Shown piece after piece: positions 338 to 9,502 of a DNA stretch of 10,027 bases; the stretch's first letter is position 1; every line of letters starts with the position of its first letter. The DNA comes from Eubacterium sp. (GTDB taxonomy: Bacteria > Bacillota > Clostridia > Peptostreptococcales > Anaerovoracaceae): assembly GCA_017419895.1 (NCBI GenBank), contig JAFOKI010000167.1, positions 1-10,027 on the forward strand, given 5' to 3'. The translations under genes were made by a program, and so were the position numbers. Below the pieces are notes generated by a model that was given only the letters and a program-made list of their open reading frames with translations, did no database searches and was not told the DNA's origin.

Positions 338-1618
338 TTATGCTCCGAGAGCGTTCGGCAGGAATGTGACGATTCCAGGTACATACGTGAGAAGCAGCAG
401 TACCAGTATCTCGATGCAGAGATACGGCAGAATCTTCTTGGAGATCTGACCCATTGTAGACTTGGTGATACCGGAAGCTACGAACAGGTTTACAGCCATC
501 GGCGGTGTGATCATTCCGATGGATGTGTTGATGATCATGATGATACCAAGAGCGATCGGCGAAAGTCCGATAGCGTTTGCCAGCGGCAGGAAGATCGGTG
601 TCATCAGGAGGATGATCGACTGTGTCTCCAGGAACATTCCGAGGAACAGCAGGATTACGTTCATGACGAGCAGCAGAGCGAACTTGTTGCTGAACAGGCC
701 GATCATGCTTGTAGCAACGGTAGCTGGGATATTGCTGTATGTCATGTACCAAGCGAACGGTGAGGACAGGGATACTACGAGGAGTACGATAGACGAGCTG
801 ACTACCGTGTCTCTGAAGCATTCAAACAGTCCCTTGAGGCTGAGCTCTCTGTATACAAGTCCACCAATGATGAGCGCGTATACGCAAGCAACAGCAGCAG
901 CTTCGGTCGGTGTGAATACGCCGCCGTAGATACCGCCGAGGATGATCAGCGGCATGATGAGGGCGAGCAGAGCACCGAGGAAGGATTTTCCGAGCGCGCC
1001 GGGCTCTCTCGGTGTCGTATCAGCAGCATCGAACTTGCTGTTCTTGATGCCGTTCAGGATTACGAGTACAAGAGCGAGCAGGAGGCCCGGGATGATTCCA
1101 GCCATGAACATTGTTCCGACGGATACGGATGCCGTTACAGCATATGTTACCATCGGGATCGACGGCGGGATAACTACTCCGAGAGTACCGGCAGATGCCG
1201 CGATGGCACCGGCTTCAGCTTTCGGATAGCCTTTTTCGATCATTCTCGGAGCAAGGATACCACCGATAGCCGCTACTGTGGCCGGGTTGGATCCGGAGAT
1301 AGCTCCGAAGAAAGCAGATGCGATTACGCATACAGCAGCAAGTCTCGCGGGGAGGCGTCTTCCGAGGATCTCGATGAAGGAGATAAGTCTCTTGGAAATA
1401 CCACCCTTGAGCATCAGGTTACCCGCAAGGATGAACAGCGGAATAGCCATGAGTGTGAAGTTGTCGACCTGCGTGAACATTCTCTGAGCGATTACCGGGA
1501 GCAGATGAGGGTCGCCGGTAATGATCATTGTGAATGCAGCGCCGAGTCCCAAGCAGAGTCCGATAGGAACGCCGAGGAACAGCAGCAAGAAAAGAATACC
1601 AAATAGTAAACCTGCCAT
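338..1618 (-). CDS. dctM: TRAP transporter large permease subunit DctM
   Basis: Large membrane subunit of a tripartite ATP-independent periplasmic transporter. It carries the substrate across the membrane using a sodium or proton gradient. The 426-residue length is typical of DctM. The protein is almost wholly hydrophobic, with about 12 predicted membrane segments. Family motifs are visible: MAIPLFILAGNLM near residues 58-70, GSNPATVAAIGG at 109-120, GVVIPPSIPM at 147-156, and the second-repeat counterpart ITPPMAVN in the C-terminal third. The ATG overlaps the dctQ stop by one base (TAATG at 1620-1616), so translation is coupled to dctQ. It is the last gene of the operon. The substrate cannot be read from this subunit; the neighbouring oxidoreductase and transketolase suggest a sugar acid. 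Confidence 0.96.
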   Translation of the reverse strand: MAGLLFGILFLLLFLGVPIGLCLGLGAAFTMIITGDPHLLPVIAQRMFTQVDNFTLMAIPLFILAGNLMLKGGISKRLISFIEILGRRLPARLAAVCVIASAFFGAISGSNPATVAAIGGILAPRMIEKGYPKAEAGAIAASAGTLGVVIPPSIPMVTYAVTASVSVGTMFMAGIIPGLLLALVLVILNGIKNSKFDAADTTPREPGALGKSFLGALLALIMPLIILGGIYGGVFTPTEAAAVACVYALIIGGLVYRELSLKGLFECFRDTVVSSSIVLLVVSLSSPFAWYMTYSNIPATVATSMIGLFSNKFALLLVMNVILLFLGMFLETQSIILLMTPIFLPLANAIGLSPIALGIIMIINTSIGMITPPMAVNLFVASGITKSTMGQISKKILPYLCIEILVLLLLTYVPGIVTFLPNALGA

Positions 1619-2169
1619 TATTTCTCGCCTCCTTCCTCAACTTCTGCTTCGAGTGCCTGAGCTTCCATAGCGGCTTCAGTAGCCTCGTCCAGGTCAACAG
1701 CGAGTCCAGCGTTAACTTCATAAGTGTGATAGCAGAATGTGATAGCCATCAGTACGATACCGATAGGAATAGCGGTGTACATCAGCCACATCGGCCACTG
1801 CAGGGACGGAGTTTTCTGTCCGGCAGCGATCTGCCATGCGATTACGTCTTTGCCGTACCATACGCAGATGACTGCGAATACTACTACGAGGATAGCAACG
1901 ATTATACGGAAGACTTTCATGCCTTTTTCAGGAACGAACATCGGCAGGATATCCGCCGAGAAGTGCGAACCCTTGGCTGCGCCGACACCGATGCCGAGGA
2001 ACGTTGCCGCGATCATGCAATATCTGGCAAACTCTTCAGCCCAGCTGAACGTGATCGTTCCGGTGTAACGGCCAAACGTGTTGATAAAGATTATAACCAA
2101 CATCGCCGCGATCAGAAGGACCGCGATGATTGATTCGATCTTTACGATGATATCAATTACTTTTTTCAT
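1618..2169 (-). CDS. dctQ: TRAP transporter small permease subunit DctQ
   Basis: Small membrane subunit that binds DctM and completes the TRAP translocator. The 183-residue protein shows four hydrophobic segments, roughly residues 12-33, 46-66, 86-106 and 128-148. It has the family motif around the first loop (F-S-W-A-E-E-F-A-R-Y, 41-50). After the last membrane helix comes an unusually acidic, Ala/Glu-rich tail (about residues 158-183), probably cytoplasmic. AGGAGAGGG lies upstream of the ATG (about 2184-2176). The gap after dctP is 15 bases and the stop overlaps the dctM start by one base. DctQ proteins diverge quickly, so the call rests on topology, motif and position between dctP and dctM. 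Confidence 0.94.
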   Translation of the reverse strand: MKKVIDIIVKIESIIAVLLIAAMLVIIFINTFGRYTGTITFSWAEEFARYCMIAATFLGIGVGAAKGSHFSADILPMFVPEKGMKVFRIIVAILVVVFAVICVWYGKDVIAWQIAAGQKTPSLQWPMWLMYTAIPIGIVLMAITFCYHTYEVNAGLAVDLDEATEAAMEAQALEAEVEEGGEK

Positions 2170-2184
2170 GTGATCCCTCTCCTA

Positions 2185-3252
2185 TCAATGTGATGCTCTG
2201 TATTTTTCGAGCTCTGCCTGGAGTTTAGCGAGGAGCTCAACCGAGTCGGCACTGATATAGTTTCCGGCGTTTTCGTACATCGGCTGAACAGCAGCACGCC
2301 ATTCTTCGATGTCAACTTCGTTAACTTCAATACCAGCGTTTCTCATCTCTTCTACGCCTTCAGCACTGGATTTCTGAGAGTAAGCTCTCTCCCAATCCTT
2401 TGCTTCTTTGGCAGCTCTTTCGACCGCGTCTTTCAGCTCCTGAGTCGGAAGATCGTTGAAGGACTTCTTACTGTAGAGCAGGATCGAAGGCGAATAGAAC
2501 AGATGTGTGATCGACAGATATGTCTGTGCTTCGTACAGTTTGTCTGTCGCTATGATTACCGGCGGGTTCTCCTGTCCGTCGATAGTCTTCTGGTTCAGAG
2601 CGGTGAATACTTCTCCGTAAGCCATCGGTGTAGCCGTAGCTCCGAGGAGGTTGTATGTTCCCATGTGAACCTGGTTTTCCATTGTTCTGATCTTGAGACC
2701 TTTCAGGTCATCCGGATGAACGATGGGGCGTTTACTGTTTGTGGTATCACGGAATCCGTTCTCCCAGAAACCGGAACCGACGATGTTCAGGTCGTCGAAC
2801 TGTGCGAGCAGGAACTGTCCGATTTCACCGTCGAGCATAGCATATGCTTCTTCTGCCGTACCGAAAATATACGGGAAGTCTGTAATAGCTACGTTCGGGA
2901 TGAAGTTAGGTACAGGACCTGTAGCGCAGACAAGTCCGTCCAGAATACCCATTCCGCACATCTCGATCATGTCACGCTCGCCGCCGATTGTCGACTGCGG
3001 ATAGATGTCTATCGTCATCTGTCCGTTTGTGTACTCCTCAACGAGTCTCTGGAACTCAACAAGACCGGATACATAGTGTCCCGGCGGAGGAGCAGTCGAC
3101 GTACCGAATCTCCAACGGATCGTCGCATCTGCGGAACCCATGAGGGATTTCGCTTTTACTTTAGAAACGTCGATCGTGTTGTCGCCGCTGCAGGCGGTCA
3201 TTGAGAGCAACATGACGACTGCAAGTAATGCTACTAACAGTTTTTTCATCAT
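2185..3252 (-). CDS. dctP: TRAP transporter solute receptor DctP, lipoprotein
   Basis: Extracytoplasmic solute-binding protein of the TRAP system, 355 residues. The N-terminus is a lipoprotein signal: two Lys, a hydrophobic run, then S-M-T-A-C with the lipidated Cys at residue 21, so it is tethered to the outer face of a Gram-positive-type membrane. DctP-family marks are ENGFR (164-168), GLKIRTMEN with the conserved carboxylate-binding Arg at 189, and DGQENP (225-230). The Arg indicates a ligand with a carboxylate. I start at the ATG at 3252 because AGGAGAG (3265-3259) is 6 bases upstream; the adjacent ATG at 3249 is equally possible. A longer reading frame to 3342 would add about 30 charged residues before the signal peptide and is rejected. 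The leader upstream holds two hairpins. Confidence 0.95.
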   Translation of the reverse strand: MMKKLLVALLAVVMLLSMTACSGDNTIDVSKVKAKSLMGSADATIRWRFGTSTAPPPGHYVSGLVEFQRLVEEYTNGQMTIDIYPQSTIGGERDMIEMCGMGILDGLVCATGPVPNFIPNVAITDFPYIFGTAEEAYAMLDGEIGQFLLAQFDDLNIVGSGFWENGFRDTTNSKRPIVHPDDLKGLKIRTMENQVHMGTYNLLGATATPMAYGEVFTALNQKTIDGQENPPVIIATDKLYEAQTYLSITHLFYSPSILLYSKKSFNDLPTQELKDAVERAAKEAKDWERAYSQKSSAEGVEEMRNAGIEVNEVDIEEWRAAVQPMYENAGNYISADSVELLAKLQAELEKYRASH

Positions 3253-3297
3253 AAAATTCTCTCCTACAAAATTAACAATGCAATAATTGCTATTTGA

Positions 3298-3386
3298 CCG
3301 GTCCGGAAGATGACGCGTCCGCCCTCTGCCGGACCGGAACAAAACTAAGTTGTCTGATGCGAGGCGAAGCGATGATCCTTCACCTC
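3298..3386 (-). other. Intercistronic hairpins upstream of dctP
   Basis: The 146-base gap between the dehydrogenase and dctP carries two inverted repeats. The nearer is a perfect 9-bp stem (3298-3306 with 3329-3337) around a 22-base loop. The other pairs 3361-3368 with 3379-3386 (8 bp including one G-U pair in the minus-strand RNA, 10-base loop). Neither has a following T-run. I see no promoter in the gap. Likely roles are mRNA processing or stabilisation that raises receptor expression over the upstream enzymes; this is inference from similar positions in other binding-protein operons. Confidence 0.5.
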
Positions 3387-3398
3387 AGTTCAATCTTC

Positions 3399-4259
3399 TC
3401 AGATTTTCGGATTCTCGGGATGGAGCATTGTGTCGATTACTCTGTAGAGTACATCGTCATCCCAAATCTTCTTCCAGTCGTCTCTGAGAACGAGCTTGTT
3501 GCCAAGACCGATAGCTACTTTGCAAGCATCCGATACAGGCGGTTTGCCCGGGATGTATCCGAGGAAGTTGCATGTGAGGTTGTAGATGTGTCCTGTCAGG
3601 AAGGAAACAGCAGCTTCTCTGTCGATGCCGCGTCTCTCAGCTTCATCTACTGTCTCAGCCATAGCGTAGAGGCATGTTGCTCCGAGGATCTCAACGAGTG
3701 TGGGCTCGAGGAAAGCGATCTGCTCAGAAGTCATTACGTATGCATTGTCTGCACCGTACATGATCTTAGCTACTGCTCTCATCTCTTCAAATACGTCGTC
3801 ATCGCCCTGGATCTTGCTCATTACGCAGTCCTGATGTCCGCCTTCTCCACCGAAACGGTCCATACGGGCTTCATAAGTATCCTGGTCTTTCAGGAACGAC
3901 GGATGGCACGGATGTGCTACGCCGAATGTGCAGTCGTCTCTGAGAGCGACTTCTTTAGCTACTGCAGCAGCCGGGTCAAGGATCAGGAATCCCGCGCCGG
4001 GCTTCAGCATCGGAACGTATTCCGCACTCAGTTTTCCGATCAGGGAATCCGGAAGCGCGAAGATAACGATGTCCGCTTTTGCGAGAGCTTCTTCAGCCGG
4101 AGTAACCTTCTGGCCTCTTGCTTCGATTCTCTCAACTGCCGGCGGGAATGATTCTACGAGAAGAACATCATACTTATCGGGATATGTAGCAAGCTTTGTG
4201 CTTGTTCTTGTTCCCATCTTGCCGCCTGCTCCCATTACCGTTACTGTCAATTTGCCCAT
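3399..4259 (-). CDS. NAD-dependent dehydrogenase, phosphogluconate-dehydrogenase-C / D-apionate oxidoisomerase (ApnO)-like
   Basis: A 286-residue two-domain dehydrogenase. The Rossmann half has GAGGKMG at 10-16 and an acidic residue, Glu36, after the second strand, which favours NAD over NADP. The C-terminal half resembles the PGDH_C group (PF16896), with HPCHP at 116-120, FGG at 136-138 and FLEP at 183-186. From memory this order of motifs matches ApnO proteins, which oxidise D-apionate and rearrange it to 3-oxo-isoapionate; exact substrate is not proven here. The start is the ATG at 4259, with AAGGAGG (4274-4268) 8 bases upstream; an alternative GTG at 4280 would put that site inside the gene. 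It lies between the transketolase subunits and a TRAP importer, so it probably acts on the imported acid. Other possibilities are a ketol-acid oxidoisomerase for erythronate, hamamelonate or another branched or short sugar acid. Confidence 0.7.
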   Translation of the reverse strand: MGKLTVTVMGAGGKMGTRTSTKLATYPDKYDVLLVESFPPAVERIEARGQKVTPAEEALAKADIVIFALPDSLIGKLSAEYVPMLKPGAGFLILDPAAAVAKEVALRDDCTFGVAHPCHPSFLKDQDTYEARMDRFGGEGGHQDCVMSKIQGDDDVFEEMRAVAKIMYGADNAYVMTSEQIAFLEPTLVEILGATCLYAMAETVDEAERRGIDREAAVSFLTGHIYNLTCNFLGYIPGKPPVSDACKVAIGLGNKLVLRDDWKKIWDDDVLYRVIDTMLHPENPKI

Positions 4260-4283
4260 TTCAAAAACCTCCTTACGCACCTT

Positions 4284-4392
4284 GCCGCAACCCTTGCGGC
4301 ATGGAGTATTATCTTCTCAGTCTCCGGCAGAGACTCGCCGGAAGACGATCAAACACTTTATTACGCACCCGCGGCTTTCCTAACAAAGCCGC
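4284..4392 (-). repeat. Hairpin-rich intercistronic element inside the transketolase operon
   Basis: The 148-base gap between the transketolase C subunit and the dehydrogenase is filled by three hairpins: a perfect 8-bp stem (4371-4378 with 4385-4392), a perfect 6-bp stem (4323-4328 with 4337-4342) and a perfect 7-bp stem with a 3-base loop (4284-4290 with 4294-4300). A 9-base direct repeat, TTACGCACC, occurs at 4273-4281 and 4361-4369, each time next to a GC-rich hairpin. None has a T-run, so it does not look like a terminator. Part of it (4382-4398) recurs near 9665, which suggests a dispersed intergenic repeat rather than a gene-specific leader. Confidence 0.55.
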
Positions 4393-4407
4393 CTCCGGCG
4401 CCGCACA

Positions 4408-5346
4408 CTACTTGCCGAGTTTCTCCTTGACCTTAGCAGCAATAGCCTCCGGCGAGAAGCCGTAAGCATCAGCCAGTTCCTTAGCCGGTCCGGATTCACC
4501 GTAAGTCGTAAGAGCGATCCTCGTTACGAATGCAGGTTTGCATTCGGTTGCCAGACGGCTGATGTACGAACCGAGTCCGCCGTTGATGTTATGGTCTTCA
4601 ATAGCGAACAGCTGATCCGATTTAGCCATTACTTTCAGGATTTCCGACGGATCTTTTCCGTAAAGGATATTGATGTCGGCCACAGTTACGTTGACTCCGT
4701 CCTCTTTCAGGAGTTCAGCAGCAGCGAGAACTCTGTCGAGAACGAATCCGTTCGAGAACAGAACCGCGTCGTCACCGTATTCTTTCCATACGGTTATGCC
4801 GCTTGCAGCGAACGGAGCGCCTTTTTCATAGACATCAACTTCTCTTCCGGAACCGCCGCGGATGTAAACAGGACCTTCCACGTCATAAGCCGCTTTTACT
4901 GCCTCGTACATCTGCTCGGGGTCTGCTGGTGTGAAAATCGTGTAGTTCGGGAATGCCGATACGATCGCCAGATCCTCATAGAACTGGTGCGTTACGCCTT
5001 CTCTTTCTCCTCCGAGAAGTCCGGCGTTGACGCCCACGAATTTAACGTTCATCTTGGTGTATCCGACGAAAGTTCTCATCTGCTCCGCAGCTCTCATCGT
5101 CAGGAATCCGCAGTATGTTCCGACATACGGAACGAGTCCCGCGCTGGCGATTCCGGCAGCCGCGTCAACAGCTCCCTGCTCAGCGATACCGCATTCGAGA
5201 TAACGATCGGGGTATTTGTCCGCGAACGGTACTGCTCTCATAGCTTTTACCGAGTCGGACGAGACCATGACTATGTCTTTCTTTTCTTCAGCCATGTCCA
5301 GAAGCGCTGCGGCGAACGCTTCGCGTGTTCCTTTATATTCTGTCAT
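4408..5346 (-). CDS. Split transketolase, C-terminal (pyrimidine-binding) subunit
   Basis: A 312-residue subunit with the pyrimidine-binding and C-terminal domains of transketolase. It pairs with the N-terminal subunit encoded just upstream to build thiamine-diphosphate sites that move a two-carbon ketol unit between sugars. Glu56 in E-C-G-I-A-E-Q is the conserved cofactor-activating glutamate, and GVTHQ (117-121) matches the GPTHQ region of full-length enzymes. The position usually occupied by an active-site His in the THDS/SHAG segment is Asn107 (VNAGL), with one extra residue before the THQ motif. The ATG at 5346 follows the upstream stop by 5 bases, and GGGGAGGGG (5364-5356) lies within the end of the upstream gene. 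A longer frame to 5418 is only overlap with that gene. Candidate relatives are the apulose-4-phosphate transketolase AptB or a housekeeping-type split transketolase; the operon favours a catabolic one. Confidence 0.9.
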   Translation of the reverse strand: MTEYKGTREAFAAALLDMAEEKKDIVMVSSDSVKAMRAVPFADKYPDRYLECGIAEQGAVDAAAGIASAGLVPYVGTYCGFLTMRAAEQMRTFVGYTKMNVKFVGVNAGLLGGEREGVTHQFYEDLAIVSAFPNYTIFTPADPEQMYEAVKAAYDVEGPVYIRGGSGREVDVYEKGAPFAASGITVWKEYGDDAVLFSNGFVLDRVLAAAELLKEDGVNVTVADINILYGKDPSEILKVMAKSDQLFAIEDHNINGGLGSYISRLATECKPAFVTRIALTTYGESGPAKELADAYGFSPEAIAAKVKEKLGK

Positions 5347-5351
5347 AACGC

Positions 5352-6170
5352 TCAGCCCCTCCCCAGCTCTTTCTTCGCGATCTCGTACTGCTCGTCTGTC
5401 GGTACGCCTTTGTGCCAATTGTTGTTGTTTTCCATGTAGCTGATGCCTTTGCCCTTGATGTCGTCACATACTATGCAGGACGGCGCGCCTTTTGTCGCCT
5501 TAGCTTCTGCCACAGCCGCTTTTATTGCTTCCACATCATGACCGCAGATTTCCTGTGTGTGCCATCCGAAAGCGCGGAAGCGGTCCGCGATGTTGTTGTA
5601 CTTGACCGTGTATTCAACACTCTTGTAGCTCTGCCAGCCGTTCTTGTCGACGAATACCACCAGGTTGTCCAGCTCGCGTCCGGTCGCCATGTTGACGCCT
5701 TCCCATGCTACGCCTTCCTGGAGCTCACCGTCACCGGTAATTACATATGTGAAGTAATCTTTTCCAAGTACTTTAGCTGCAAATGCCATACCTGCTCCGA
5801 TCGCTATGCCGTTTCCGAGCGAACCGGACGTCATATCGAGTCCTTCGGTGCTTCTCATTGACGGATGTCCCTGGAACTTGCTTCCAAGCTGTCTGAGATT
5901 AAAATGCTCTACCTTAGGCTGATAATAGCCACGCTCATTGAGTGCCGCATAAAGTATCGGGCACGAATGACCTTTTGAAAGGACAAGTCTGTCACGGTCT
6001 TCCCAGGCGGGCTCTTCCGGTCTGATGTTCATAACATCAAAATAGAGCGTTGCAATGATATCCGCTATTGAAAGAGCCGGACCGGGATGCCCGTCCTTGC
6101 CTTCATATACCATGCGGACTGCCTCAAAGCGCAGCTCGTTCGCCATCGCCTGGATCTGTTCATTGTTCAA
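5352..6170 (-). CDS. Split transketolase, N-terminal (thiamine-diphosphate-binding) subunit
   Basis: A 272-residue subunit corresponding to the first domain of transketolase. It carries the diphosphate and metal site, GDG at 146-148 through Asn177 in VDKNG, plus the substrate-channel histidines in KDGHPGPALS (His28), LSKGHS (His68) and GHPSM (His102). It is the first gene of the operon and is translated just before the C-terminal subunit, which is 5 bases away. The start needs care. AGGAGG (6184-6179) overlaps the GTG at 6179, so that codon cannot be used with it; a TTG at 6170 sits 8 bases downstream and is the best start. An ATG nine codons into the protein is too far away. AptA-type apulose-4-phosphate transketolase is the closest named function that fits the context, but substrate is not readable. 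Confidence 0.92.
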   Translation of the reverse strand: MNNEQIQAMANELRFEAVRMVYEGKDGHPGPALSIADIIATLYFDVMNIRPEEPAWEDRDRLVLSKGHSCPILYAALNERGYYQPKVEHFNLRQLGSKFQGHPSMRSTEGLDMTSGSLGNGIAIGAGMAFAAKVLGKDYFTYVITGDGELQEGVAWEGVNMATGRELDNLVVFVDKNGWQSYKSVEYTVKYNNIADRFRAFGWHTQEICGHDVEAIKAAVAEAKATKGAPSCIVCDDIKGKGISYMENNNNWHKGVPTDEQYEIAKKELGRG

Positions 6171-6178
6171 ATGAAACA

Positions 6179-6184
6179 CCTCCT
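6179..6184 (-). promoter_or_regulatory. Ribosome binding site that selects a TTG start for the transketolase N subunit
   Basis: A perfect AGGAGG whose last G is also the first base of the GTG at 6179-6177. The only well-placed start is the TTG at 6170-6168, 8 bases away. A TTG start with a perfect binding site may limit expression of the first subunit relative to later genes. Confidence 0.65.
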
Positions 6185-6566: not shown

Positions 6567-7703
6567 CTATTTCATAGCGTAAAGTCTGAACACCTGCTCC
6601 GCAGTGTCAGTCATATTTTTCAGGGCGTTTTCCGTCGCCATCGCCTCGTCGAGAGTTACGACCGTGCGGAGTATCGGGAAGAATGCGTCAATCCCGTGCT
6701 CGTTGCAGTATCTCGCGTCATCCGTCACGCTGCCCGAAAATGCAATGACCGGGATCCCGTATTTCTTGGCGAGTCCTGCAACTCCCGCGGGAGCCTTTCC
6801 CATTACAGTCTGCTTGTCGAGACGGCCTTCCCCGGTGATCACTACGTCTGCTTCTTTGACAAAGTCTTCAAGCCTCGTCACTTCCAGCACGATATCGATA
6901 CCAGGCTCAAGCGTCGCTCCGAGATAGGATCTCAGTCCGAAACCGAGTCCTCCTGCCGCGCCGCTTCCCGGGAGAAGCGGATCCGCGCCGGGACAGACTT
7001 TCGCTGTAAGTTCCGCATAATTCGCGAGCCATCCGTCGAGTACTTTTACCATTTCCGGAGTTGCGCCTTTCTGAGGTCCGTAGATCGCGCTCGCCCCGTT
7101 GTCACCGCAAAGCGGGTTGTTGACGTCGCATATCGTCCTGAACTTGCACTCGTCGAGTTCCGGCATACGCGTGGTCACATCTATTTCAGCGAGATCCGCA
7201 AGTCCGGCCGCGCCTTTGGCTATCTCATTTCCGTCTTTGTCGAGCAGCTTGTAACCAAGCGCCTGGAGCATCCCCGCGCCGCCGTCGTTAGTCGCGCTTC
7301 CACCGATTCCGACGTAGAAATTCCTGCAGCCGCGCTCGATCGCGTCGCGTATCACTTCCCCGACTCCGTAAGTCGTCGCTTTATATGGGTCTAATTCTTC
7401 CCTCGGCGCAAGCGTGATCCCGGCAGCCGCAGACATCTCGATCACCGCGGTTCCGGATTCGGGAGCGATACCGTAAGCACATTCTACCGGTTTTCCGAAC
7501 GGTCCCGTAACCGTTACGCTCGTCATCTCGGCACCGGTCGCGAATACGATCGCGTCTACCGTTCCCTCGCCTCCGTCCGCCATCGGACGCACTTCCGTAA
7601 CTGCATCCGGAATGGCTCTTCTGATACCTTCCGCAGCCGCGTTTCCGGCTTCGAGAGAGGTCATGCTTCCTTTGAACGAATCGATCGCTATTACTGCTTT
7701 CAT
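6567..7703 (-). CDS. glxK: Glycerate 2-kinase (GlxK/GarK family)
   Basis: Transfers phosphate from ATP to D-glycerate, giving 2-phosphoglycerate for lower glycolysis, in the cytoplasm. The 378 residues match the usual family length (PF02595, type II). Signature segments are DSFKGS (8-13), MADGGEGT (41-48), GGSATNDGGAGM (134-145), GSGAAGGLG (246-254) and ITGEGRLDKQT (289-299). The ATG at 7703 overlaps the stop of the upstream HAD gene by four bases (ATGA), and its binding site AGGAGGA lies within that gene's last codons, so the two are coupled. It is the last gene of the operon. Glycerate could come from hydroxypyruvate or tartronate semialdehyde; neither a reductase nor glyoxylate carboligase is in the window. 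The neighbouring transketolase operon may supply hydroxypyruvate, which is inference. Confidence 0.95.
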   Translation of the reverse strand: MKAVIAIDSFKGSMTSLEAGNAAAEGIRRAIPDAVTEVRPMADGGEGTVDAIVFATGAEMTSVTVTGPFGKPVECAYGIAPESGTAVIEMSAAAGITLAPREELDPYKATTYGVGEVIRDAIERGCRNFYVGIGGSATNDGGAGMLQALGYKLLDKDGNEIAKGAAGLADLAEIDVTTRMPELDECKFRTICDVNNPLCGDNGASAIYGPQKGATPEMVKVLDGWLANYAELTAKVCPGADPLLPGSGAAGGLGFGLRSYLGATLEPGIDIVLEVTRLEDFVKEADVVITGEGRLDKQTVMGKAPAGVAGLAKKYGIPVIAFSGSVTDDARYCNEHGIDAFFPILRTVVTLDEAMATENALKNMTDTAEQVFRLYAMK

Positions 7704-8443
7704 TGTGCTCCTCCTAATATCAGATTTTTAAGTTCTTCCGTTGTATCAACAAAAATCTCTGCGCCGGCTTCTTTCAGCTGCGCCAAAGACCTGAAGCCCC
7801 ATGTCACGGCTGCGCACGGCAGCCCCGCATTCTTCGACGTTTCAACGTCGACCTCCGAATCGCCTATAAATAACACTTTCGCATCCGGATCATCCGTGAG
7901 CGCTTCTATCGCGAGCTTAACCATGTCAGGCGCGGGTTTCCTTTTGATGCCTTCCTTCTCGCCCGTAACAAAGTCGAATTTGCCCGGAAAATGCCTTTCG
8001 ATAAGATTGTGGACCGCGAAATCGCCTTTGTTGGATACAAGCGCTGTTCTGACGCCTGCCTTCCTCAGATCGTCCAGCATCCCGTTTATGCCCGGATATG
8101 GGGCGGTATGGTCGTCCATGTGGATTTTATAGTACGCGAGAAATGTCTCAAGCACCTGCGGCTCGATGTGCTCAGCGCGCATCTCCGCGATCCTGTTGGT
8201 CACACAGGTTGCCTCCAGGCACCGCCCCGGCTGCGGCATCAGTCCTGACATATCAGGATCCGGCATGCTCCTGTGGATCAGATTCTTCATTCCGTTTCCA
8301 AGAAAGCTCCGCACTTCTTCCTGCCTGCGCACCGGAAGGCCGAACTCAGTAAGCGCGTAGTTTACAGAAAGCGCGAGATCCTCGAGCGTGTCGAGCACCG
8401 TGCCGTCGAGATCGAATATCGCGATGTCAAAGCCTTGCGCCAT
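7700..8443 (-). CDS. HAD-family hydrolase, phosphoglycolate phosphatase-like
   Basis: A 247-residue haloacid-dehalogenase-type phosphatase of the Gph/PgmB group. The four HAD motifs are present: nucleophile region FDLDGT (10-15, Asp11 and Asp13), S-N-K (137-139), the lysine in KRKPAP (167-172) and GDSEVD (194-199). The helical cap follows motif I. It is longer than usual, with an extra stretch around residues 61-92 that has no counterpart in typical Gph caps and includes two Cys and several Met. I start at the ATG at 8443, which overlaps the upstream stop (TGATG) and has GGGGAAGAG 9 bases upstream; a GTG at 8452 is possible but sits too close to that site. Its substrate may be phosphoglycolate, a phosphorylated three-carbon acid, or something else; HAD specificity cannot be read from motifs. 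Confidence 0.88.
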   Translation of the reverse strand: MAQGFDIAIFDLDGTVLDTLEDLALSVNYALTEFGLPVRRQEEVRSFLGNGMKNLIHRSMPDPDMSGLMPQPGRCLEATCVTNRIAEMRAEHIEPQVLETFLAYYKIHMDDHTAPYPGINGMLDDLRKAGVRTALVSNKGDFAVHNLIERHFPGKFDFVTGEKEGIKRKPAPDMVKLAIEALTDDPDAKVLFIGDSEVDVETSKNAGLPCAAVTWGFRSLAQLKEAGAEIFVDTTEELKNLILGGAQ

Positions 8444-9453
8444 CAGATCCACTCTTCCCCACCGGCTTCATCATCGCCGTCATTCTCAAAACGCATCTCC
8501 TGGGTCGCGACACTGACTCTGGTGTGCGGCGCGACCGACTTTGTAACAAAGGCGTTTCCGCCTATCACGCAGCCTTCGCCGATCACCGTATTACCGCCGA
8601 GCACTGTCGCTCCGGAATAAAGCGTTACATTGTCCTCGATCGTCGGATGTCTCTTGACACCGTGGAGCGCATGTCCCGCGCTTGTCGAAAGCGCGCCGAT
8701 CGTAACGCCCTGGTAGACCTTTACGTGCTCTCCGATTATCGAAGTCGATCCGATAACGATACCTGTCGCATGGTCAATAAAGAAATACTTGCCGATCTCC
8801 GCCGCCGGATGGATATCCACACCGGTCTCCCTGTGTGCGTATTCAGACATCATTCGCGGGATCATCGGTATGCCCAGAAGCACCAGTTCATGCGCAAGTC
8901 TGTATACCGCCGTCGCGAGCAGACCCGGGTACGAAAGTACGATCTCATCCTTGTTGTTCGCCGCCGGATCGCCGTCAAAAGTCGCCTGAAGGTCTGTATC
9001 AAGATACTCTCTGATCTTGGGGATCCTGCGGAAATACTCGATCGTAAATTCCTTGGCGCAGCGTTTGCGTTCTTCCTTTCCCACATTCGAGAAATTCGGG
9101 ATATAGACCATCACGATCTCAATCTGCTTCCGAAGCCTGTACATGACGTCTTCTATGACGACATTCATCTTGGCGACCTCGTTCCTGGTCCTGTAGATGC
9201 TGTCGCGGTAATATCCCGGGAAAAGCACTATCAGGAGACTCCTGACAATATCGATCACCGCGTCCTGGTCCGGCTGCTCGAACGCCTTCATGCTGTCGAT
9301 GTCGCGGCCTTTTCCGTAATCCGCGATTATACTGTCAACCACCTCATCCGCGATCTCGTTCAGTTTCTTTTCAACGATATCGACATCTCTCTTGATACTG
9401 GAAAGATCCGCGAACTCTCTCTCATTCGTAATTTCATTCTGTATTTCAGCCAT
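8443..9453 (-). CDS. Serine O-acetyltransferase, long form (EpsC/CysE type)
   Basis: Transfers acetyl from acetyl-CoA to L-serine to make O-acetylserine, the direct precursor of cysteine. The 336-residue protein has a helical N-terminal half (about 1-200) and a left-handed beta-helix of hexapeptide repeats. Key segments are YAHRETGVDIHPAAEIG (205-221) and the catalytic FIDHATGIVIG (225-235, His228), followed by HPTIEDNV and IGEGCVIGGNA. The long N-terminus and acidic C-terminal tail (D/E-rich, ending EEWI) are typical of the long bacterial form. I prefer the ATG at 9453, which has GGTGA 5 bases upstream; the in-frame ATG at 9465 adds four residues but has no binding site. First gene of the operon with the HAD hydrolase and glycerate kinase, overlapping the former by one base. 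Confidence 0.93.
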   Translation of the reverse strand: MAEIQNEITNEREFADLSSIKRDVDIVEKKLNEIADEVVDSIIADYGKGRDIDSMKAFEQPDQDAVIDIVRSLLIVLFPGYYRDSIYRTRNEVAKMNVVIEDVMYRLRKQIEIVMVYIPNFSNVGKEERKRCAKEFTIEYFRRIPKIREYLDTDLQATFDGDPAANNKDEIVLSYPGLLATAVYRLAHELVLLGIPMIPRMMSEYAHRETGVDIHPAAEIGKYFFIDHATGIVIGSTSIIGEHVKVYQGVTIGALSTSAGHALHGVKRHPTIEDNVTLYSGATVLGGNTVIGEGCVIGGNAFVTKSVAPHTRVSVATQEMRFENDGDDEAGGEEWI

Positions 9454-9502
9454 GCTATTCACCATTTTATGAAGGAATATTTCTCAGTTTTTTGTACCCA
9501 TT

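Follow-up and report, generated by a model that had tools for sequence, protein, structure and literature searches.

A gene cassette of Eubacterium sp. that couples a split transketolase to a PGDH_C dehydrogenase and a tripartite ATP-independent periplasmic (TRAP) importer is probably a transketolase branch of D-apionate catabolism. It lies on the minus strand of contig JAFOKI010000167.1 (10,027 nucleotides; contig C198, 1-10027, in our numbering), the whole stretch of DNA analysed here and hereafter called the window, which belongs to a metagenome-assembled genome (MAG) of 1.70 Mb in 303 contigs with a completeness of 83.6%. The partners of related dehydrogenases and the genes downstream support the transketolase-based apionate route that an earlier note on this DNA had put forward, the substrate, acceptor and products of which we infer from sequence. 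The gene set named in that note, a split transketolase, an ApnO-like PGDH_C dehydrogenase, a TRAP importer and a nearby glycerate kinase, is confirmed by domain matches and by reading frames that are open in all cassette genes, all on the minus strand:

338-1618, minus strand: TRAP large permease DctM (PF06808, 368.3 bits)
1618-2169, minus strand: TRAP small permease DctQ (PF04290, 112.7 bits)
2185-3252, minus strand: TRAP solute receptor DctP, proposed sugar-acid receptor
3399-4259, minus strand: PGDH_C dehydrogenase, proposed D-apionate oxidoisomerase, ApnO-like (286 aa; PF16896, 171 bits, cut-off 25)
4408-5346, minus strand: split transketolase C-terminal subunit (312 aa; PF02779 and PF02780)
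5352-6179, minus strand: split transketolase N-terminal subunit, thiamine diphosphate (ThDP)-binding (275 aa; PF00456, 208.5 bits)
6567-7703, minus strand: glycerate kinase, proposed final step from D-glycerate (PF02595, 496.3 bits; TIGR00045 above cut-off)
7700-8452, minus strand: haloacid dehalogenase (HAD) phosphatase, phosphoglycolate-phosphatase-like (PF13419; TIGR01449 131 bits, under the cut-off of 180)

D-apionate pathways with ApnO and OiaC, OiaK/OiaX or OiaK/OiaT were reportedly described by Carter et al. 2018 and represent the known fates of 3-oxo-isoapionate. Our main evidence is the partner that PGDH_C keeps elsewhere. Searching the PGDH_C protein against genome contigs gave 30 related loci, to which we added five new regions found by drawing 391 genomes from across the class (six matched, counting the window's own), two from a draw in the class of the genome of locus L025 (274 genomes, 3 with a match, L025's included) and 15 of the 251 matching records of a plasmid set. 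The comparison set comprises 53 PGDH_C loci, window included, and partners were judged within the stretch examined per locus. A transketolase pair is the partner in 30 of them, an OiaC-like gene in six (L025, L055, L056, L057, L059 and L073) and a RuBisCO-like protein (RLP) and/or DUF1537 gene in 14. No partner was seen in three: L027 and L058, which lie at contig ends (that of L027 only 0.4 kb downstream), and L080, which is nearly identical to L062, a locus with OiaX. Within these stretches none of the 30 transketolase loci holds an OiaC, RLP or DUF1537 gene; the window likewise lacks all three, as the earlier note had stated. The gene context that marks ApnO, OiaC or OiaK/OiaX/OiaT alongside, thus occurs in 0 of the 30 and is found in the relatives with OiaC-like or RLP/DUF1537 genes. 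Conserved Oia genes in the same locus, which the earlier note had listed as speaking against its reading, were not seen in these stretches.

The linkage between transketolase and PGDH_C is not due to chance, since the pair is present in 28 of the 30 related loci (27 carry the window's transketolase subfamily, whereas L017 has just a canonical pair). In 27 of the 30 transketolase loci it stands less than 400 bp upstream of PGDH_C; a reductase gene intervenes in L020, and importer genes intervene in L024 and L028. Carriers of the cassette include Blautia hansenii, Faecalicatena faecalis, Clostridium sporosphaeroides and Faecalispora jeddahensis. The accessory genes are common to both kinds of locus. 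Indeed, L054 (transketolase) and L055 (OiaC) each have an ATP-binding cassette (ABC) sugar importer, an Amidohydro_2 lactonase-like gene and a GntR/FCD regulator of the same kinds. ABC or TRAP importers occur in transketolase and other PGDH_C loci, the GntR/FCD regulator in 16/30 and 16/23, and the lactonase-like gene in 5/30 and 2/23, respectively. An OiaC profile built from six rows scored 408-439 bits in all four genomes that contributed rows, with three further matches of 133-258 bits in the genome of L025. At E<=1e-10 it found nothing in the window's MAG, and among nine transketolase genomes eight gave no match and the ninth a single match of 65 bits. From the partner counts, the common accessory genes and these profile results, it is the transketolase pair that stands where OiaC or OiaK/OiaX would otherwise follow this enzyme family.

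Two of the OiaC-type loci have further features. In L025 (Accumulibacter), an AP_endonuc_2 TIM barrel (OiaC-like) follows PGDH_C, and an L-threonate set (8628-11611) stands after the PGDH_C, OiaC-like and TRAP genes, comprising genes for a threonate dehydrogenase and a 3-oxo-tetronate kinase plus a frame that, judged by eye, resembles aldolases; the DUF1537 match of this locus is that kinase, not OiaK. L073 additionally has a full-length tkt, separate from but close to the OiaC-type genes.

The second line of evidence is what accompanies the cassette downstream. Were 3-oxo-isoapionate, HOOC-C(OH)(CH2OH)-CO-CH2OH, cleaved between the ketone and the tertiary carbon, the ketol would leave and hydroxypyruvate would remain, which matches the reductase and kinase genes observed. 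A D-2-hydroxyacid dehydrogenase resembling hydroxypyruvate reductases is present in 18 of the 30 transketolase loci and in 0 of the 23 others (Fisher p 1.4e-6, the loci being related), including L024 from the Desulfuromonadaceae, a locus distant from those of the Firmicutes. It carries PF00389 and PF02826 and is closest to the PRK06487/PRK08410 models, with scores under every NCBIfam equivalog cut-off. In 2-hydroxyacid dehydrogenases, residue rules exist for the catalytic R/E/H and the NADH-type Asp, and an acidic residue after the Gly motif is a sign of NAD(H) use. In all ten reductases examined, R, E and H of the catalytic site are kept and the Gly motif is followed by an Asp, which points to NADH; both redox enzymes, this one and PGDH_C, show an acidic residue of the NAD(H) type at that place. 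A PF02595 glycerate kinase is found in 7/30 transketolase loci versus 0/23 others and follows the reductase in L002, L004, L006, L008, L009 and L012, while L005 has a DUF4147/MOFRL glycerate kinase in its stead, a kind also present in the RLP locus L064. Together, the two families occur in 8/30 versus 1/23 loci. That two unrelated glycerate kinases were recruited beside the reductase suggests that glycerate is formed, in line with the path from hydroxypyruvate through glycerate to glycerate kinase that the earlier note had predicted. Separately, a gene resembling GH78 alpha-L-rhamnosidases and an ABC importer come directly after the reductase in L010 (9895-12543), L014 and L018, suggesting a glycoside as sugar source.

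The third line of evidence is the transketolase itself. The best solved relatives of its subunits are 6yak (N) and 6yaj (C), the split transketolase of C. hydrogenoformans. In the numbering of E. coli TktA, H26, H66, H100 and H261 are conserved in 28/28 aligned cassette N-subunits, and E411 and H473 in 29/29 C-subunits; the window has the adjacent N- and C-subunits with catalytic His/Glu of a split-type transketolase. In the S. stipitis and C. hydrogenoformans enzymes the phosphate-orienting motif is R-S-F-H-R, and in the sulfo-sugar transketolase it is R-A-F-D-R (PMC11659671). Pairwise alignment with 6yaj and human transketolase shows that the canonical motif is not kept in the window, where it reads R-A-Y-N-S, four of the five positions differing; the Tyr is also present in canonical paralogues. 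In addition, the window C-subunit carries a GEREGVTHQ loop. GEREG, with an inserted Arg, replaces the canonical GPDG in 29 of the 33 C-subunits of transketolase loci, the same number having Asn at the H461 position and Ser at the R520 position (by motif), and Ala stands for S385 in 29/29 aligned cassette C-subunits. The other four are canonical paralogues in L007, L017, L019 and L021; this division relies on the GEREG motif itself, and tblastn labels agree with it. Pairwise alignments and motifs were used for H461 and R520, which MAFFT misplaced against TktA through gaps. Compared with the canonical paralogues, the cassette site thus loses the equivalents of S385, H461 and R520 and gains an Arg, which we propose may bind the donor carboxylate. 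Against plasmids, the C-subunit gave no match at 1e-45.

The proposed route would run as follows. DctPQM would import the sugar acid, and the PGDH_C enzyme, acting as D-apionate oxidoisomerase in the way of a ketol-acid reductoisomerase (KARI) working in the oxidising direction, would produce 3-oxo-isoapionate and NADH. The split transketolase would cut the latter between the ketone and the tertiary carbinol and transfer the HOCH2-CO unit to glyceraldehyde 3-phosphate, giving xylulose 5-phosphate and leaving hydroxypyruvate; we deduce this step from the partner replacement, the donor-site changes and the downstream genes. Hydroxypyruvate would be reduced to D-glycerate by the D-2-hydroxyacid dehydrogenase with the NADH of the second step (the gene is kept in relatives, and the MAG has an unlinked homologue), and glycerate kinase would convert the product into phosphoglycerate. 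In net terms, apionate, glyceraldehyde 3-phosphate and ATP would give xylulose 5-phosphate and phosphoglycerate, without CO2 loss and with NADH in balance.

Several observations weigh against this reading. First, L017 (6120-8867, Quinella 1Q7) couples PGDH_C with a canonical transketolase pair only; L007 and L019, with near-identical PGDH_C, have both pairs, and either assembly collapse or loss of the cassette pair may explain the difference. Second, 12 of the 30 transketolase loci, the window included, show no reductase; the nearest homologue in the window's MAG, 62% identical to the L002 reductase, is on contig C122, unlinked. Third, that the phosphate site is lost might speak against an acceptor carrying a phosphate. 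Such an acceptor is still tenable, because the sulfo-sugar transketolase, with an altered site of its own, uses glyceraldehyde 3-phosphate according to PMC11659671. Fourth, the window's transketolase subfamily also occurs without PGDH_C. Counted at E<=1e-65 among the 391 genomes, cassette-like C-subunits accompany PGDH_C in G000 and G179 and are found in PGDH_C-free G149, G322 and G383, the sequences of which fall inside the cassette group of the C-subunit tree. Therefore, the GEREG motif appears to mark a donor class wider than this cassette.

Besides the transketolase, the PGDH_C-free clusters (L087:6411-11650, L088:6300-11522 and L089:3707-11913) encode a protein resembling Asp/Glu racemases, a TIM barrel of the AP_endonuc_2 family, a regulator of GntR/FCD-like type and a transaldolase; glycosidase genes lie nearby in L087 and L088 and a TRAP importer in L089. 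These clusters possibly represent another sugar-acid transketolase/transaldolase pathway. We lean towards the view that the cassette is a fourth, carbon-conserving and redox-neutral way of splitting 3-oxo-isoapionate, by a dedicated transketolase whose GEREG Arg loop would bind the carboxylated branched ketol donor, and that this is one use of a wider sugar-acid transketolase subfamily whose second cluster (racemase, TIM barrel and transaldolase) would degrade another acid.

ApnO is a member of PF16896, as the label of the homologue P0080 (see below) supports. Within the comparison set, with the partial gene of L058 left out of tree and residue counts, 41 residues are conserved over 30 transketolase-linked and 22 other rows, most of the latter linked to OiaC or RLP genes; the window has all 41, with GAGGKMG. 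The transketolase-linked rows form one group (100/99), with L025 and L027 just outside, all within one 100/100 clade. P0080, a homologue 75% identical to the window protein, bears the source label D-apionate oxidoisomerase; no NCBIfam model matches or names the window PGDH_C, that of L025 or the OiaC-like neighbour of the latter. The nearest solved chains are 5t57 and 3c24. After two members of its own family, the best matches of the PGDH_C model are BurG and ketol-acid reductoisomerases at 11-18% identity, with some other dehydrogenases scoring nearly as high; BurG and ketol-acid reductoisomerase (IlvC) differ from PGDH_C in substrate, and the redox direction proposed here is the reverse. From the P0080 label, the gene context and the fold, the enzyme is proposed to be a D-apionate oxidoisomerase. 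The family is rare, since PF16896 was found in 1/398 genomes of a phylum draw (the window's own only) and PGDH_C in 1/22 of an order draw around G109 (G109 only); it was not found in the sole other genome of the window's genus in the class-wide draw.

The same chemistry could act on another branched sugar acid (L-apionate, or another 2,3,4-trihydroxy-3-hydroxymethyl acid or lactone), D-apionate not being the physiological substrate. Among the matches listed, the window PGDH_C is only 35-40% identical to 40 plasmid homologues, and those examined adjoin OiaC or RLP/DUF1537. The importers of transketolase loci also differ, with a DctM-type TRAP permease in 14/30 and an ABC sugar ATPase in 7/30 (the match in L028, 80 bits, is doubtful). 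Moreover, L028 has a LarA-like nickel-pincer isomerase (NF052515 group 22, 482 bits, cut-off 400) inside the cassette (3737-4978) and L006 a Lar_N protein (13473-14792), which would fit use of a sugar-acid epimer as well. Against this stand the 41 residues common to transketolase-linked and other rows, the 62% identity of the window protein to that of L025, which lies just outside the transketolase group and adjoins an OiaC-like gene, and the regulator, importer and lactonase-like genes, the kinds of which recur in OiaC loci. We regard another acid as unlikely and keep D-apionate as the preferred substrate. As to the importer, R168 and R189 are invariant in all 14 DctP proteins aligned and are, we assume, equivalent to SiaP R127/R147. 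The ligands of PDB entries 4pdd, 4pdh and 4pak are reportedly D-erythronate and pantoate, the DctP relatives 4pdd and 4pdh binding a linear tetronate.

It is considerably less probable that the transketolase pair is ordinary pentose-phosphate machinery beside PGDH_C, with 3-oxo-isoapionate handled by an unlinked enzyme. Canonical pairs do adjoin the cassette in L007 and L019, lie farther away in L021 and stand alone with PGDH_C in L017, and the MAG has DUF1537 genes on C263 and C38 and a RuBisCO-like gene on C243, all unlinked to the window cassette. However, the cassette transketolase forms its own subfamily, remodelled at the donor site in 29 of the 33 C-subunits, seven transketolase genomes each carry 1-7 further, less similar C-subunit or DXS matches, OiaC is missing at the threshold above from eight of nine genomes (65 bits in the ninth), and this reading leaves the reductase without explanation. 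The MAG's RuBisCO-like protein is nearest to MtnW models (266.6 bits, cut-off 409) and scores 134 bits against OiaX, for which the cut-off is 700. Its gene (L041, G000:C243) adjoins an FGGY kinase resembling xylulokinases and a partial 2-hydroxyacid dehydrogenase frame at the contig end. It was ruled out as a PGDH_C partner, being MtnW-like, far under the OiaX cut-off and beside the xylulokinase-like gene, not PGDH_C.

Least probable of all is a linear sugar acid as the source: PGDH_C would make another ketol acid, the transketolase would leave glyoxylate or tartronate semialdehyde, and the dehydrogenase would be a glyoxylate/semialdehyde reductase. The dehydrogenase does match glyoxylate reductase models too (below cut-off) and the reported ligands of 4pdd and 4pdh are linear, but in transketolase loci glycerate kinases of two families follow the dehydrogenase, the PGDH_C model resembles ketol-acid reductoisomerases, as an enzyme shifting a carbon branch should, and there would be no reason for a transketolase to stand where OiaC or OiaX/OiaK stand elsewhere.

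Compared with the known apionate routes, the transketolase branch is both similar and distinct. Decarboxylation and the transcarboxylation/hydrolysis of 3-oxo-isoapionate 4-phosphate by RLPs are cited in a passage of PMC6302742, and a gene set of ApnO, 3-oxoisoapionate kinase and decarboxylase is named in an excerpt of PMC11747546. In common with these routes are the PGDH_C enzyme, the GntR/FCD regulator, a TRAP or ABC sugar importer and, in some loci, a lactonase-like gene. Unlike them, the transketolase loci were found without OiaC, OiaK, OiaX or OiaT, have a split transketolase, often with the hydroxypyruvate-reductase-like gene, and the proposed route would release no CO2.

The earlier note had also drawn an analogy to AptAB, the apulose-4-phosphate transketolase of D-apiose catabolism, which acts next to a tertiary carbinol on a donor that is phosphorylated, not carboxylated. 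The analogy holds in that AptAB is split, has Asn at the H461 position and has lost D469 in AptB, as in the cassette enzyme; it fails in that AptB has neither R358 nor the GEREG loop with its Arg insertion, and has Thr at the S385 position. The E. coli SE15 genes ECSF_RS02710/02715, named aptA/aptB in an excerpt of PMC13001218, lie in a cluster with an FGGY kinase and no annotated PGDH_C. A seed search for FGGY (apulose kinase) gave no match in the 30 transketolase loci; the only matches were in L055 and L057. A further counterpart is SqwGH, the 6-deoxy-6-sulfofructose transketolase, which, according to PMC11659671, has two subunits and transfers the ketol of an anionic, non-phosphorylated donor to glyceraldehyde 3-phosphate. 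The two-subunit make-up, the kind of donor (as proposed here) and the Ser-to-Ala change in the phosphate-orienting motif are alike, whereas the published motif is R-A-F-D-R, not R-A-Y-N-S, the donor is linear and sulfonated, and the sulfonate product is excreted or oxidised.

Within the window, the minus strand is read in the order CysE/EpsC-like gene, HAD phosphatase, glycerate kinase, a 388-bp gap, the transketolase subunits, PGDH_C, DctP, DctQ and DctM. Gene starts were chosen among in-frame starts; for the transketolase C-subunit, 5346 was preferred to the upstream TTG of a longer open reading frame that reaches 5418. The first cassette gene begins at 6179, 9 bases beyond the limit of the range (338-6170) that had been considered earlier. 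The glycerate kinase lies outside this range, upstream, and may be a separate transcript, because of the gap and of the 4-bp overlap with the HAD phosphatase gene. Upstream of the latter is a serine O-acetyltransferase-like gene (the two span 7700-9465). This set could belong to serine and glycerate metabolism, and we are unsure whether the HAD phosphatase is a member of the pathway. Since DctM ends only 337 bases from the window end, genes that come after it in relatives are not visible here. As a check for contamination, the GC content of the window (0.517) and its tetranucleotide make-up were compared with other sequences and fit three other MAG contigs (correlation 0.80-0.88), a weak test given that L020, from another genome, reaches 0.87.

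Our literature searches found no publication joining apionate with transketolase, and nothing on apulose; therefore, as far as they reach, a transketolase branch of apionate catabolism is undescribed. If true, it extends the range of transketolase donors to a carboxylated tertiary ketol and provides a sequence motif for finding further sugar-acid transketolases. As transketolases serve in synthesis, the way in which a donor site accommodates branched acids would also be of interest to biocatalysis. D-apiose is a plant cell-wall and flavonoid sugar, which makes its acid a plausible nutrient of gut and rumen bacteria. A net route without CO2 loss or NADH surplus would suit fermenting anaerobes and would explain how apionate can be used under anaerobic conditions.

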